Shown: positions 9,317 through 14,587 of the stretch, one piece after another
Position numbering within the stretch: the first letter of the stretch is position 1
How the letters are laid out: every line of letters starts with the position of its first letter
Origin: a virus
Direction: 5' to 3' (one strand)
Virus record (IMG/VR): IMGVR_UViG_3300030380_003376
Location: 1-46,062 of that record
DNA: 46,062 bases
Notes under the pieces: model-generated
Told to the model about the DNA's origin: nothing
Databases searched by the model: none
What the model saw: the letters and a program-made list of their open reading frames with translations, nothing else
Program-made: the position numbers and the translations under genes

Positions 9317-9558
9317 CCTAGAAGCATATCACCACGCTTAAGGGAATTGAACAAGCGGGTGTAAAACAGTTCACGAAGAGAATCTAACTCTCGCAAAACA
9401 CTCGTCAAGTTCCTCACAGTTGTTTCTGTAATCTTTTCATCATCCTTGATGCCTTTTAGGATATCTGTGCAGGCATCAAGCATGTTCTGCTGATCTTTAG
9501 TAATCTTGTTGATTGTATCGATCTGCGCTTCTTTTGTAATAATTTCAGAATCGGACAT
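9313..9558 (-). CDS. Small helical protein of unknown function
   Basis: An 81-residue protein, almost all helical by composition, with a likely coiled coil across about residues 15-70 (QQNMLDACTDILKGIKDDEK and LTSVLRELDSLRELFYTRLF). I see no membrane segment and no motif I recognise. Its ATG at 9558 lies 14 bases inside the UvsW-type helicase gene, so it is the second gene of a two-gene minus-strand operon. Its TAG at 9313 overlaps the fibre stop codon. In T4 the uvsW region also contains small uvsY-linked genes, but I cannot claim homology. Confidence 0.75.
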   Translation of the reverse strand: MSDSEIITKEAQIDTINKITKDQQNMLDACTDILKGIKDDEKITETTVRNLTSVLRELDSLRELFYTRLFNSLKRGDMLLG

Positions 9559-10930
9559 TGTGTACCTCGAACTTTAGTCTTTTATAGTGTTGTATTCTTT
9601 GTTTTGAGTGATTCTCTAGGTAAGGAATTCGATCATAGAAATCGTAGAAATACATAGTATCTTTACCGTCTGCTTTACGGATACCTCTACCCAAACCCTG
9701 CAACGTTGGGACCTCGCCTGATAACCCTCTAGCATTAATCATGTGTGTAATCTCATCAATGCTAATACCAGTTTGCATAACGTTAGTGCCAATTATCGTA
9801 GCAGCCTTATCATCTTTTACGAACTTGGTTATAATATCATATCTACTATCAATATCATCTTTTCCTTCGATAGTATAGCAGTTACTAATTCTTTCTTGTA
9901 AGTTCTCAATGTGCTGCAAGTTTTTTACAAGAATTAAGATCTTAGCATTAGTATTAGATTGATATACTTTTGATACAATATCCTTAATTTTATCATTACG
10001 GATATCACAGTTTACCACGTATTGATCATAAATATCAAGGTAAGTTAAGTCATTATCAACAGATGATGTAGGAGTGTTATCTACAACTTGAATTATGGGC
10101 TTTGCAAGAGCACCATCTTTGATTAGATCCTCTGCTGTCCGAGTCGTGTATACAGGTCCAAAAGCTCCCTCTAATACCATCCTGGCGTTAATATCCTTTG
10201 CATTATCTCTTGGAGGTGTGGCAGTGAATGCGAGCCTGTAGGAAGCATTAGGGAAGCTTTCGATAGCTGCTATGGTTGTCTCGCCCTTGCAGAACTGGTG
10301 TGCTTCGTCAACCATCAATACCTCAGTATCTTGTAGGTGTGTATCAACAATACGCTCAATACTTTGAACTGTTGAAAGCATTACCTGACCGGGAAGATAG
10401 CCCTCTCCTGAGTTATAACCCAGATTCTTTATACCGCACCTCTTAAAAAATTCATAAGTTTGATTTAAAATTCCTTTCTCTCTGAAAAGAACAACCACTT
10501 TTGGATTGTCTCCCCATTGAAGTGCAGCTATGCATCCTGCCATGATTAGAGTTTTACCTGAGCCTGTTGGACTATCAATAATCGCCCTTCTTCTTTTGAG
10601 ACACTGATCGATAGCCTTTTCTTGATATTCTCGATACTTGAAGTTTCCGGCTTCAGGTATGAAAAAGGGTTCTGATTCGAGCTTATTTTCCCATTCGATA
10701 TCAGTTACTCCGATATTAGTTAGATCTTTTAAAATACGAGTAAGAAGTCCTGTCCTAAACTTACCACTAGTTGCGAAGTATCTCTTCTTACCGTCCCATC
10801 GTCTTTTTTTATAGGCCGGTGAGTATTCATGGCCTGGGACTGGGAATGAATACTTTTCTTTTAAAGCCCCTATTATCTTGGGATTATCCGTCTCCAGCTT
10901 CGACGTTAAATTCCCTAATATTATTTTCAT
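9545..10930 (-). CDS. uvsW: UvsW-type superfamily 2 helicase
   Basis: A 461-residue helicase with a clear order of SF2 motifs: Walker A GSGKT (123-127), DEAH box VDEAH (207-211), motif III FTATPP (235-240) and motif VI QGLGRGIRK (411-419). The first 100 residues hold a small basic domain before the YREYQEKAID Q-type entry to the helicase core, the arrangement of T4 UvsW (503 residues). In T4, UvsW unwinds branched DNA and R-loops, drives the switch to recombination-dependent replication, and lies near uvsY, 25 and 26. Here a gp26-type gene is its divergent neighbour, 37 bases away, which supports the call. It is the first gene of the minus-strand pair. Confidence 0.9.
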   Translation of the reverse strand: MKIILGNLTSKLETDNPKIIGALKEKYSFPVPGHEYSPAYKKRRWDGKKRYFATSGKFRTGLLTRILKDLTNIGVTDIEWENKLESEPFFIPEAGNFKYREYQEKAIDQCLKRRRAIIDSPTGSGKTLIMAGCIAALQWGDNPKVVVLFREKGILNQTYEFFKRCGIKNLGYNSGEGYLPGQVMLSTVQSIERIVDTHLQDTEVLMVDEAHQFCKGETTIAAIESFPNASYRLAFTATPPRDNAKDINARMVLEGAFGPVYTTRTAEDLIKDGALAKPIIQVVDNTPTSSVDNDLTYLDIYDQYVVNCDIRNDKIKDIVSKVYQSNTNAKILILVKNLQHIENLQERISNCYTIEGKDDIDSRYDIITKFVKDDKAATIIGTNVMQTGISIDEITHMINARGLSGEVPTLQGLGRGIRKADGKDTMYFYDFYDRIPYLENHSKQRIQHYKRLKFEVHNVRF

Positions 10931-10967: not shown

Positions 10968-11723
10968 ATGAGTAAACTTAAACAAGTACAACCTACGAAC
11001 TCAAATCAATATGATGAGTTATTAGATAAAATGTTTGCAGGAGTGGAGTCTCCTCAATCTCTTATCGTCGATCTACCCTCTAAAAGCAAATTCTACACTA
11101 ACGTAAAAGAAGTTGTGGTAACGCCTTTGACCTTTGAAGAAGAGACAAAAATCATTAATTCAAGAGGAAAGGGGAATGATGTTATTAATCTAATTCTTGA
11201 AAAATGCGTTAAAGGCATTGAAATATCTGAGCTTTTACAAATCGATAAACTTTTTCTTCTCATGAAGGTAAGAGAGGCGTCATATGGTGCGATCTATAAG
11301 TTTGATTTGGCCTGTCCTGCTTGTGCTGCTCAGATCAAGACAGAGATTGACATCGCTAATGACCTTAATGTCAACTACGTGTCCGATGACTTTGAGGACC
11401 CTCGTATGGTAACCTTACCTCAGTTAGGTGTCGAAGCTGTAGTAAGATTCCCTAGAAATCATGAGGAGGGATTTCACGCGGATGCTGAAAGTTTGGCCAA
11501 GAATTTATACAGATTTGTATTATCTCTAAACGGGGAGACCAACTCTGTATTCATCTCAAAAGCCATTAAAAGAATGCAAATTGCTGACGTTAAGACGATA
11601 GCTAATGAGGTGACCAAGGGTGAGTTTGGTTTAGATCCTAGATTCCTATTTGAGTGCCCCTCTTGCGGTCACAATACGATGATGGAAATACCTCTGGATG
11701 CAGGTTTTTTTTCGGTGACCTAA
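10968..11723 (+). CDS. gp26: Baseplate hub subunit, gp26-type, with zinc-ribbon-like cysteines
   Basis: A 251-residue product when read from the ATG at 10968 to TAA at 11723. An earlier in-frame ATG at 10878 would run into the helicase gene and adds poor sequence, so I prefer MSKLKQVQ. The chain has VDLPSKSKFY and VVVTPLTFEEETKI, typical of T4-type gp26 baseplate proteins (PF12322-like, my assignment from memory). It also has two cysteine pairs, C116PACA and C230PSCGH, that would make a zinc ribbon. The last codons read GGT TTT TTT TCG GTG ACC TAA. The reading frame ends abruptly after the second Cys pair, whereas the -1 frame continues with a helical domain. The end given here is therefore probably only one of two products. 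Confidence 0.85.
   Translation: MSKLKQVQPTNSNQYDELLDKMFAGVESPQSLIVDLPSKSKFYTNVKEVVVTPLTFEEETKIINSRGKGNDVINLILEKCVKGIEISELLQIDKLFLLMKVREASYGAIYKFDLACPACAAQIKTEIDIANDLNVNYVSDDFEDPRMVTLPQLGVEAVVRFPRNHEEGFHADAESLAKNLYRFVLSLNGETNSVFISKAIKRMQIADVKTIANEVTKGEFGLDPRFLFECPSCGHNTMMEIPLDAGFFSVT
11705..11712 (+). other. T8 slippery site, candidate -1 frameshift
   Basis: Eight Ts follow GG. In the gp26 frame this reads as T TTT TTT T, a heptamer (X XXY YYZ with X, Y and Z all T) on which both the P-site and A-site tRNAs can re-pair after a -1 shift. The zero frame stops nine bases after the run (TAA 11721-11723). The -1 frame is open to 11890. A run of eight Ts can also allow RNA polymerase slippage. I see no strong hairpin just downstream. 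Confidence 0.6.
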
Positions 11724-11890
11724 TAGACTCTTTATCCTTTGAGGAGTTGATGCGTCAAGCCTACATATTAGTAAGCAAGACTGGGTTTTCTTATTCAGAT
11801 GTAAAAAAGATGACTTCAAACGAGAGGATGGCCTTTCTAAATATGTATGTCGAAGAAATGAACCAGATGAAAAATGAGGCTTCAAAGTAA
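11705..11890 (+). CDS. -1 frame extension of the gp26-type gene (helical C-terminal domain)
   Basis: In the -1 frame after the T run the sequence codes FFFGDLIDSLSFEELMRQAY, then ILVSKTGFSYSDVKKMTSNE and a helical end. This is a compact helical domain with the pattern I associate with the C-terminal part of T4-type gp26 proteins (aromatic-S-x2-D-hydrophobic followed by an ERxxFL helix). Shifting at the T run would give about 307 residues. The TAA at 11888 overlaps the next ATG at 11890 (TAATG), as at other translated junctions in this operon, so this frame is evidently translated. It might instead start on its own at ATG 11750, where GAGGAG lies only three bases upstream, giving 46 residues. 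A sequencing error in the T run is a third possibility. Confidence 0.7.
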   Translation, partial: FFFGDLIDSLSFEELMRQAYILVSKTGFSYSDVKKMTSNERMAFLNMYVEEMNQMKNEASK

Positions 11891-12834
11891 TGAGAATTAA
11901 TGATAAAAAAGTAGATACTCGCCATGAGAGGCCCACGGTCTTAGGGCCTACGGCGTTAATCCTTTATTTTGTAAATGATGGTCAGTATCAGGACCCCCAT
12001 GCTATCAGCGGGGTTTCGATATTTGCTGCCTCGGACAACCAGTCACCAAGCTCGGTGGTAACTGCTGATGGAGAGATTGACCCTGCTGTAACTGGCAGTG
12101 TCTTGATGCATTTCTCCGCTCCAGGCGTCGTCGCTGATAACAGCTTGTATGATGCCAGCAACTACAACGCTAACTTTAATTCCTCTAGTGTATACAAGTT
12201 GGATAATGGGAAGTTTGCTTGTGTTCTTTTAGACAATACTACATTACCTAGTGGTATATTTAATCTTTCGGGCCAAACAGGCATAGATAACAGAGTTTCC
12301 TCCACTGGAAAGTACATTGATGTTTGGACAGTTCAAAGAGTTAATGGCTCTGATCTTGATACCATAATCAATGATTTCACATTAACAGAGGATCGATTCT
12401 TTGGAATTACTGAGCCTCTTCTTTTCAGAGTAAATACTCGCCTAGAGAACAATCACTTGGTACTAGGGTCTAAGGTAGATCTCAAGTTTGTTAATGAGTT
12501 CACTTTAGAAAACGCTAATGTTGACAGAAGTATAGTAAACTTGTTCAAGGAATCCCTTGTCATGGATCCCATGATTGAAATAGTGAAGAAGAATACTGAC
12601 AGGAACTTACCGTCTAGAGTTACCGTCTCGGGATACACGGACACCTCCGGTTTCATGGATGTGACATCTGAAAACACTGCGATCTTTACTTTTGACACTG
12701 ATGCCTTGAAGACTCACGCAGAAGTCGTTGCTGGCAACTTAGGATCGCTCACAGGAACATACGCTGTCAGACTTAAGTTTACCGCGTTGAATCAGACCAT
12801 CGTGTCAGATGATCTAGGATTCATTATTAGGTGA
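11890..12834 (+). CDS. Unknown, probably virion-associated beta-rich protein
   Basis: A 314-residue soluble protein with alternating hydrophobic residues suggesting beta-sandwich domains. Notable segments are ALILYFVNDGQYQDPHAISGVSIF near the start and FTFDTDALKTHAEVVAG with YAVRLKFTALNQTIVSDDLGFIIR at the end, which resembles an immunoglobulin-like or other beta-sandwich domain. I do not recognise the family. It begins in a TAATG overlap with the -1 frame gp26 extension, so it is part of the same small baseplate operon. It ends with 21 bases overlapping the opposite-strand primase gene. A baseplate or tail accessory role is inferred from position only. Confidence 0.8.
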   Translation: MRINDKKVDTRHERPTVLGPTALILYFVNDGQYQDPHAISGVSIFAASDNQSPSSVVTADGEIDPAVTGSVLMHFSAPGVVADNSLYDASNYNANFNSSSVYKLDNGKFACVLLDNTTLPSGIFNLSGQTGIDNRVSSTGKYIDVWTVQRVNGSDLDTIINDFTLTEDRFFGITEPLLFRVNTRLENNHLVLGSKVDLKFVNEFTLENANVDRSIVNLFKESLVMDPMIEIVKKNTDRNLPSRVTVSGYTDTSGFMDVTSENTAIFTFDTDALKTHAEVVAGNLGSLTGTYAVRLKFTALNQTIVSDDLGFIIR

Positions 12835-13752
12835 ACCTAGGAGGCATTCTAGGCTGTTGAGGGGCATTGTCTTCTCAGCAGTCTGCTTCAGGTAGTCAGG
12901 ACCCTTCTTTATCAAGACCTCATTCCAGTCTTTGAAACAATCAGGAGGAGTAACGGTTTGGACATTGTCCCTGCAAACCCAGTTGCTAAGTTGCAGGAAT
13001 TTATCTCTACCTTTCTGGCCAGCTTCGTCACTATCAAATGCACATACAAGAGGGCCTTGGTATTGGCTCAGTTGAAGCATCTGCTCACGACTCGTATAGC
13101 AGCTTAGGGTGGTTGTAGAATTTAACCCTACCGCTTGTAGGCTTAGGCAATCAAAGACTCCCTCAGTGACGTACAGAGGCTCATACGAGCTATATTCGTA
13201 AGGGTATAAGACTTGCGAACTTTTGAGATCCTTACAGTTCAAATACTTAGGCATTTCATCACCTAGAGCCCGAGCTTGAAAGTAGAACAATCGACCCTTT
13301 CGATTGATGAAAGGAATGATCAGCCTACCCTTGTAAGGGCCAGATTTTGCTAGCATAAACTTGGCGTTAGGAACCATTCTGTTCACAGCAAAGGGATGAT
13401 CTTCAACGAACTCAAAGTCCTTTGCGTCTTCGATGTTAGATTGGATCTTGTTGGTATCAAACCTGATGGGCTTGCGAATCTTGTCATTCTCGTTGAATTG
13501 CTCAAAGGCAAGATTGACCTTTGCCTCTGCATAAGAACACTTTTCCATCAGAACATATAGCTTGATGAAGTTTCCAGTCTCACCAGTCTTAAAGCATCTC
13601 CATAAGCCATTCTCGACATTGATGGACATGTGACGCTTATAGTCATTATTAATAAAGATAGATGGAACTACCATCTGTCTTCCGTCGCTCTCAAGCCTAT
13701 AATTAGAGGAGAACTTATCCAGACAGTACTTTCTAATATAGGAATCGTCCAT
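12814..13752 (-). CDS. DNA primase, TOPRIM type (DnaG/gp61-like)
   Basis: A 312-residue enzyme that makes RNA primers for lagging-strand synthesis. The N-terminal part has WRCFKTGETGNFIKLYVL, the shape of a primase zinc-binding domain, but with only one cysteine visible where several are usual. The core includes GRLIIPFINRKGRLFYFQARAL, then the TOPRIM motifs VTEGVFD (Glu197) and AFDSDEAG (Asp240, Asp242), which bind the catalytic metals. I chose ATG 13752; ATG 13755 just before it is equally possible, while the in-frame ATG at 13830 would lie wholly in the opposite gene. It diverges from the nuclease gene with one base between start codons. A short DnaG-family enzyme of this kind would work with a phage replicative helicase, not present here. 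Confidence 0.88.
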   Translation of the reverse strand: MDDSYIRKYCLDKFSSNYRLESDGRQMVVPSIFINNDYKRHMSINVENGLWRCFKTGETGNFIKLYVLMEKCSYAEAKVNLAFEQFNENDKIRKPIRFDTNKIQSNIEDAKDFEFVEDHPFAVNRMVPNAKFMLAKSGPYKGRLIIPFINRKGRLFYFQARALGDEMPKYLNCKDLKSSQVLYPYEYSSYEPLYVTEGVFDCLSLQAVGLNSTTTLSCYTSREQMLQLSQYQGPLVCAFDSDEAGQKGRDKFLQLSNWVCRDNVQTVTPPDCFKDWNEVLIKKGPDYLKQTAEKTMPLNSLECLLGSPNNES

Positions 13753-13753
13753 C

Positions 13754-14587
13754 ATGTTTATAAATAGTATTAGTGCCTCTAAGAGTGACATAATAGACCA
13801 GTGCCTGTGGAAATACAGACTGAGATACATCTTGCGACTGCCGGGATTCGGCGCGAAGAATGAGGATGCTTTGAACTTCGGATCCTTTATTCACAAGATA
13901 TTTGAGGTTGGATACAAAGAGAAAGATTTAAAGTCTTTACTTAAAATTGCTGAACAAGAGCGCCCAGTGTATAAGGTTCCGTTCCATGAAAACGACCGGA
14001 TGAAATGTTGCCTGGAGAACTTCCTGATGTGGAATCAAAAGCTGGGAGAGACGGTATCCACTGAACAGACTTTCAATATCCCTTTGGATAAGAAGCATGA
14101 GATTAACTTCATAGGGGTTATTGACCGAGTGATCAAGGGTTCAGATGGCGGATATCTGGTTATTGACTACAAGACATCCAAGCGAGAGAAGAAAAAGAAA
14201 ACCTTGATGGACGACAATCAGTTGAAAGGATATGCCTACGCTATCCATGAGACACATGGAGTTCCTTACAATAAGATATACTGTGCTCATTACTATCCTG
14301 TCACAGGGAACTTCGTAACTGTTAAGTTCTCCAAGTTTCAGGTTGATCGATGGAAGAAGCTACAGATCGAGAAGGTCTGGAGAATTCGTAAGAAGAAGAA
14401 GGATGAGTTCTGGGCTCAAGAAAACATTTTCTGTGACTGGTGTGAGTATAAGGAGGCTTGCCCTAAATTTCACTCAGATGAGCATGTCTGCAAGCGTATT
14501 GACGAGCAGAAGGAATTAAAGAAAGCTAGTAACAACGTAAAACCAGAAGACAAGAAGAAGAATGTCGATAGTCCCCTTAAGGGGTGA
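13754..14587 (+). CDS. PD-(D/E)XK nuclease with Fe-S cluster cysteines (RecB/Cas4-like)
   Basis: A 277-residue exonuclease-like protein. It opens with SISASKSDIIDQCLWKYRLR, the usual entry of RecB/AddB nuclease domains. It has His47 (FGSFIHKIFE), Asp124 (GVIDRV), Asp138 and Lys140 in VIDYKTSK (the D-x-K active site) and Gln156 (QLKGYAYA). Cysteines 17, 227, 230 and 236 give C-x209-C-x2-C-x5-C, the spacing of the AddB/Cas4 iron-sulphur staple that holds the two ends of the domain together. Residues after 240 are a charged tail. It sits between a primase and small genes and may act in recombination or DNA end processing, or degrade host DNA. There is no CRISPR array or Cas1 in view, so a CRISPR role is not supported. 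Confidence 0.9.
   Translation: MFINSISASKSDIIDQCLWKYRLRYILRLPGFGAKNEDALNFGSFIHKIFEVGYKEKDLKSLLKIAEQERPVYKVPFHENDRMKCCLENFLMWNQKLGETVSTEQTFNIPLDKKHEINFIGVIDRVIKGSDGGYLVIDYKTSKREKKKKTLMDDNQLKGYAYAIHETHGVPYNKIYCAHYYPVTGNFVTVKFSKFQVDRWKKLQIEKVWRIRKKKKDEFWAQENIFCDWCEYKEACPKFHSDEHVCKRIDEQKELKKASNNVKPEDKKKNVDSPLKG

Follow-up and report, generated by a model that had tools for sequence, protein, structure and literature searches.

The window analyzed here, a 46,062-nt stretch of the IMG/VR virus record IMGVR_UViG_3300030380_003376, is a fragment of a T4-like virus with genes for a T4-type portal (PF07230), a terminase, gp25- and gp6-type wedge proteins and a prohead protease. On its plus strand a gp26-type gene (10968..11723, starting at ATG 10968) encodes 251 amino acids in the zero frame. 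The protein scores 58.8 bits against PF12322 (T4_baseplate) relative to a Pfam curated cut-off of 24.5, so that family membership is met, and it matches phrog_150 with an E-value of 4e-17. The 3' end of this frame reads GCA GGT TTT TTT TCG GTG ACC TAA. The run of eight Ts (11705-11712), the only T8 on the plus strand of the window, contains the slippery heptamer T_TTT_TTT (11705..11711) in the X_XXY_YYZ register, and the zero-frame stop, TAA (11721..11723), lies 9 nt past it. The open -1 frame spans 11654 to 11890 and, after a slip, would add a gp51-like helical domain (11711..11890, plus strand; 59 amino acids plus stop), giving a predicted fused product of 248 + 59 = 307 amino acids as the long form, next to the short form of 251. 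The -1 frame ends as TAATG, in which its stop overlaps the start of the next gene (ATG at 11890; 11890..12834, plus strand), which encodes 314 amino acids and has no family. A first-pass annotation of this DNA had described the T run and the stop nine bases beyond it, the -1 slip register, the open -1 frame with its TAATG overlap, and two products of 251 and about 307 residues, and each of these points was reproduced here from the sequence or, for the products, by computation. On the minus strand, the locus is flanked by a UvsW-like gene (9545-10930) and a primase-like gene (12814-13830), and loci L024 and L151 have a matching ORF layout around gp26, as judged by length and strand; the genes there are unidentified. 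No tape measure gene was identified in the window, the neighbors of the gp26-type gene being the two just named, and a DNA-level search of phages gave no match.

Relatives were collected by searching IMG/VR with gp26 and with the -1 domain, which yielded 95 other non-redundant viral contigs or loci of the same clade, among which gp26 identity drops to about 31%. These loci are kin to one another and so do not represent 95 independent events. In every one of them the second domain lies in the -1 frame behind NNT_TTT_TT(T/C), in register, as the first-pass annotation had read it for the window; the run itself is T8 in 76 loci, T7A in 9 and T6C in 10, and the spacing from heptamer to stop is 9 nt in 92 of the 95. 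The codon ahead of the run varies (AAT, GGT, GAT, AGT, TCT, ACT, CAT and GCT, specifying seven amino acids), and yet its third position is always T, versus 35% third-position T in these genes generally. As a check on selection bias, the 25 loci that were retrieved with gp26 alone were considered separately, and the arrangement fits all 25. Because it is kept in 95/95 other non-redundant loci, the slip-site arrangement exceeds what chance would give in these sequences, and a heptamer in the X_XXY_YYZ register with codon-level conservation (95/95) meets the criterion for programmed -1 frameshifting.

Past the zero-frame stop, all 96 loci keep the -1 frame open, and both other frames are closed in 96/96. 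The median pN/pS in the -1 frame is 0.21 (1009 pairs), which indicates purifying selection, and this was found for the -1 frame only. When searched alone, the -1 domain of the window matches phrog_634, named "baseplate hub assembly catalyst", weakly (E 0.009); 18 of the 38 members of the -1 domain family match phrog_634, the best with an E-value of 1e-5, and hhalign, for which all E-values given are pairwise, aligned the profile of the -1 domain to T4-type gp51 C-termini at 91% and E 1e-6. The structural model of the domain (pLDDT 88) is all helical. Its comparison with the PDB returned only unrelated folds with Z below 5, and the matches in BFVD, whose labels fit (gp51 of P-HM1 and two tail or tape measure chaperones), are weak support only since none had an E-value below 0.02. 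As judged from the profile and family matches, the second domain is homologous to the C-terminal part of gp51 and is not gp26-like. The first-pass annotation had described a helical domain resembling the C-terminal part of gp26; its helical character stands, and its attribution to gp26 gives way to the gp51 family. An island of synonymous constraint was also found about 50-70 nt downstream (11756..11773, plus strand; CAA GCC TAC ATA TTA GTA), where in 82 non-redundant loci ATA is used in 81/81 Ile codons and codon identity is raised at GCC, TTA and GTA. No consensus RNA structure was found for the island in the 82 loci, and the constraint is real but unexplained. A promoter or repeated motif at 11759-11775 was considered and rejected, there being no second copy in the window and a core at chance level.

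The same relation between the two frames recurs outside the clade. In a jumbo-like clade with gp26 about 30% identical, the heptamer is in register in 19 loci, 18 of them T_TTT_TTC, and the -1 frame runs on without a stop into a conserved helical domain. Cyanophage-type loci have NNT_TTT_TTC ten bases before the stop (49/49), with the -1 frame open across it; in those of the Sf-FS3 type, codon 5 of the -1 frame, located five codons past the slip, is an ATG at which a restart is possible. S-RIM2 has the heptamer in register and no ATG in the post-slip stretch. In that phage (L274, 3262-3399), from the end of gp26 onward, the -1 frame is uninterrupted and lacks an ATG, and the ORF annotated there as "baseplate hub assembly catalyst" is probably truncated. 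Heptamers of the T_TTT_TTC type are likewise in register in VH7D (KVP40 group), Aswh_1 (Ishigurovirus) and IC12, and T_TTT_TTG is found in RL38J1 and RHph_Y68. The groups with an in-register heptamer include Pootjesviridae and rhizobial phages, with Pootjesviridae, KVP40-type phages and Ishigurovirus each represented by a single member. Other solutions exist as well: the second domain is in the +1 frame in SP-15, LIS04, GXN1 and LR756508, and Cygsa01 and Vibrio K444, which lack a heptamer, encode the domain as an ORF of its own that restarts at TAATG. Just before the stop in SP-15, LIS04 and GXN1 there is a conserved NCC-CGA-TTY (L007 4690-4720, L006 4680-4705 and L008 4705-4730, respectively), a candidate +1 shift site for which the CCC-based +1 shifts of PSA and SPP1 offer a comparison. 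In PhiSH19 (Ackermannviridae; L269 3300-3480), the -1 domain follows gp26 without a heptamer or an ATG at its start. The first-pass annotation had stated that related phages in which the second domain is always a separate gene would refute a frameshift; it is not always separate.

No element that might stimulate frameshifting was identified for the clade. RNAalifold gave no consensus structure downstream of the slip site in 82 non-redundant loci, and Shine-Dalgarno-like motifs upstream of the heptamer occur in only 4 of the 95 clade relatives. A stem formed by CTAATA (11720-11725) and TATTAG (11766-11771), which looked good in 15 loci, was discarded because only about four pairs persist in the 82 loci and RNAalifold supports nothing there. 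Among cyanophage-type loci (L189-L268), 52/56 have a Shine-Dalgarno-like GGAGG at a distance of 11-15 nt upstream of the heptamer, a spacing that resembles that of the E. coli dnaX stimulator. As a frameshift stimulator this motif is suggestive only, since the codons there also encode conserved residues. The cyanophage GGAGG is also too distant from the downstream ATG to be its ribosome binding site.

The architecture of the T4 proteins provides a further comparison. T4 gp26 consists of the PF12322 domain alone, and T4 gp51 of the same domain plus a C-terminal extension that is homologous to the -1 domain of the window; genes 26 and 51 are separate and lie on opposite strands. Two PF12322 genes were found in 6/6 T4-type Straboviridae tested and one in 16 other phages; Mel-JY01 had none at the cut-off. 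By their shared domain, T4 gp26 and gp51 are short and long paralogues, and this architecture together with the copy numbers implies that phages obtain the two forms from paralogues or else, most likely, by recoding. T4-type gp51 also supplies the homologues with both parts in one uninterrupted frame that the first-pass annotation had proposed as support for a frameshift.

With respect to function, the gp26-type gene lies between the tail tube and tape measure genes in SP-15 and LIS04. The AlphaFold2 model of the gp26-type protein (pLDDT 90.6) has as its top match among solved structures YqbN (3klu; Z 5.0, rmsd 5.2, 94 aligned), which we take to be a homologue of the PBSX chaperone XkdN, and as its next match the HK97 tail assembly chaperone (2ob9; Z 4.9, rmsd 3.2, 70 aligned), the two falling on different halves of the model. 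These matches came from a structure re-alignment in which only 3 of 690 chains reach Z 2; a Z near 5 is modest and can reflect common arrangements. A Foldseek search of the PDB with the same model gave nothing significant, and a sequence search of solved structures gave nothing useful. The short and long predicted forms with a common N-terminal part (251 and 307 amino acids) meet the G/GT criterion; their expression is not shown. "Hub protein" appears to be an inherited label, as the pair looks like a tail assembly chaperone, which would place it in the same class as lambda G/GT, the class from which the first-pass annotation had set a gp26-type hub protein apart. The strongest competitor to this assignment, which we nevertheless consider unlikely, accepts the frameshift and makes its products parts of the baseplate hub and not G/GT-type chaperones. 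It agrees with the database names, which read baseplate hub, and with some T4 work that puts gp26 in the hub (PMC3004832). The same source lists both T4 gp26 and gp51 among the hub assembly chaperones, which favors the chaperone role, and reports that the T4 particle lacks gp51 (PMC3004832). Against the hub reading stand this absence of gp51, the location of the gene in SP-15 and LIS04, the two tail assembly chaperones among the structural matches, and the short/long pair, the mark of G/GT systems.

We place distinctly less weight on internal initiation or termination-reinitiation, by which the second domain would be a separate small protein made, for example, from ATG 11750, which is in the -1 frame and has GAGGAG at 11741-11746. 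The ATG of the Sf-FS3-type cyanophages and the TAATG restarts of Cygsa01 and K444 are consistent with such a start, but it was rejected as a general mechanism because ATG, GTG and TTG are all missing from the first 19 codons of the -1 frame in 82 of the 95 relatives. Moreover, the domain has no ATG ahead of it in S-RIM2, Ishigurovirus and IC12, T4 gp51 has both parts in a single chain, and an internal start would leave the heptamer with no need for conservation. Transcriptional slippage, with RNA polymerase adding a U (or dropping two) at the T8 to create the fused frame in some mRNAs, seems slightly less credible still. The T8 is long enough for it and is present in 76/95 relatives, but ten relatives have six Ts only (T_TTT_TTC) and nine have T7A, all keeping the X_XXY_YYZ register, and the jumbo-like and cyanophage clades have T6C as well. 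Transcriptional slippage generally needs a run longer than six, and the six-T variants therefore argue against it. Prone to error as homopolymers are, a sequencing or assembly error at the run (7 or 9 Ts in reality, as the first-pass annotation had allowed) can be dismissed, since T8 is found in 76 of the 95 relatives with only register-preserving variants in the others, and it is refuted by the recurrence of the -1 arrangement in 95 further contigs and in isolates whose genomes carry T6C.

On the comparative evidence, a programmed -1 frameshift, as the first-pass annotation had proposed, is supported and is the best reading by a wide margin, without expression data. We consider it very probable that the product of the gene is a lambda G/GT-type tail assembly chaperone, with a short form and a -1 frameshifted long form. 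The site, the frames, their selection and conservation, the homologies and the copy numbers come from sequence; the tandem slip, its frequency, the chaperone function and tape measure binding are inferences. Counting against a frameshifted chaperone are the lack of expression data, the failure to find a stimulator in the 82 loci or in more than a few of the 95 relatives, the position of the window gene between uvsW-like and primase genes and not beside an identified tape measure gene, and the separate ORFs of Cygsa01 and K444. Under the proposed mechanism, most ribosomes would terminate at 11721 and release the 251-residue short form, and a minority would slip back one base with tRNA-Phe in both sites on T_TTT_TTT and continue in the -1 frame to the 307-residue long form with its C-terminal helical gp51-like domain. 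On the lambda model, the N-terminal part common to both forms would form a coat on the tape measure, and the role of the extension would be to bring in tail tube or hub subunits; the ratio of short to long form would be fixed by the slip frequency. T4-type phages would obtain the same two forms from the paralogous genes 26 and 51. Most likely, then, gp26/gp51 are the G/GT-type chaperones of T4, made in the window virus by -1 frameshifting. No prior report of a gp26 or gp51 frameshift was found in the literature searched, outside which lie most subscription journals, and novelty is to be understood as not found and not as proved.

A review describes G-T frameshifting as widely conserved in long-tailed phages except T4 (PMC5009743). 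We think it likely, with somewhat less assurance than for the window gene itself, that T4 is no exception to the G/GT rule: throughout the T4-like superfamily gp26/gp51 would serve as the tail assembly chaperone, descended from one gene with a -1 slip at T_TTT_TTY; T4-type phages would have swapped the slip for a duplicated gene (26 for the short form, 51 for the long one), and the SP-15-like phages would use a +1 shift. The T4 tail is the textbook example of a contractile tail, and what gp26/gp51 do, like the apparently missing G/GT pair, has long been a loose end. If the proposal is true, T4 tail initiation obeys the short/long chaperone rule of lambda, gene duplication accounts for the "except T4" clause, and the annotations of gp26/gp51 in many cyanophages and other myoviruses should be changed to a joined CDS. 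There would also be a natural comparison of two ways to set a protein ratio, slip frequency versus two genes.

In lambda, both the short form and its -1 extended counterpart attach to the tape measure, with tail tube subunits being recruited by the extension (PMC5009743). The predicted products of the window gene resemble lambda G/GT and its homologues, SPP1 17.5/17.5* and P2 E/E', in the common N-terminal part of their short and long forms, in a -1 slip (inferred for the window gene) at X_XXY_YYZ near the 3' end, and in a helical C-terminal extension. The SPP1 pair is reported to shift at U_UUU_UUC (PMC6316719), the heptamer of the jumbo-like and cyanophage clades. Unlike lambda G/GT, the window gene belongs to the PF12322/gp51 sequence family and has no identified tape measure gene adjoining it. 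The gp26 and "baseplate hub assembly catalyst" ORFs of cyanophages are offset by -1 in the same way, and T_TTT_TTC again stands at the 3' end of gp26, but they are annotated as two independent ORFs, and in many of them the upstream GGAGG is present along with an ATG five codons beyond the slip. In phage 0305phi8-36, gp143/gp144 form a two-gene tail chaperonin in which G and GT come from paralogous genes without a frameshift (PMC2147016), and gene duplication in T4 thus has a precedent, albeit in another phage lineage and in a paper that does not mention gp26/gp51. T4 gp26/gp51 themselves share both protein architectures with the predicted products of the window gene, and the difference is that T4 has two genes where the window virus has one gene that is inferred to be recoded.
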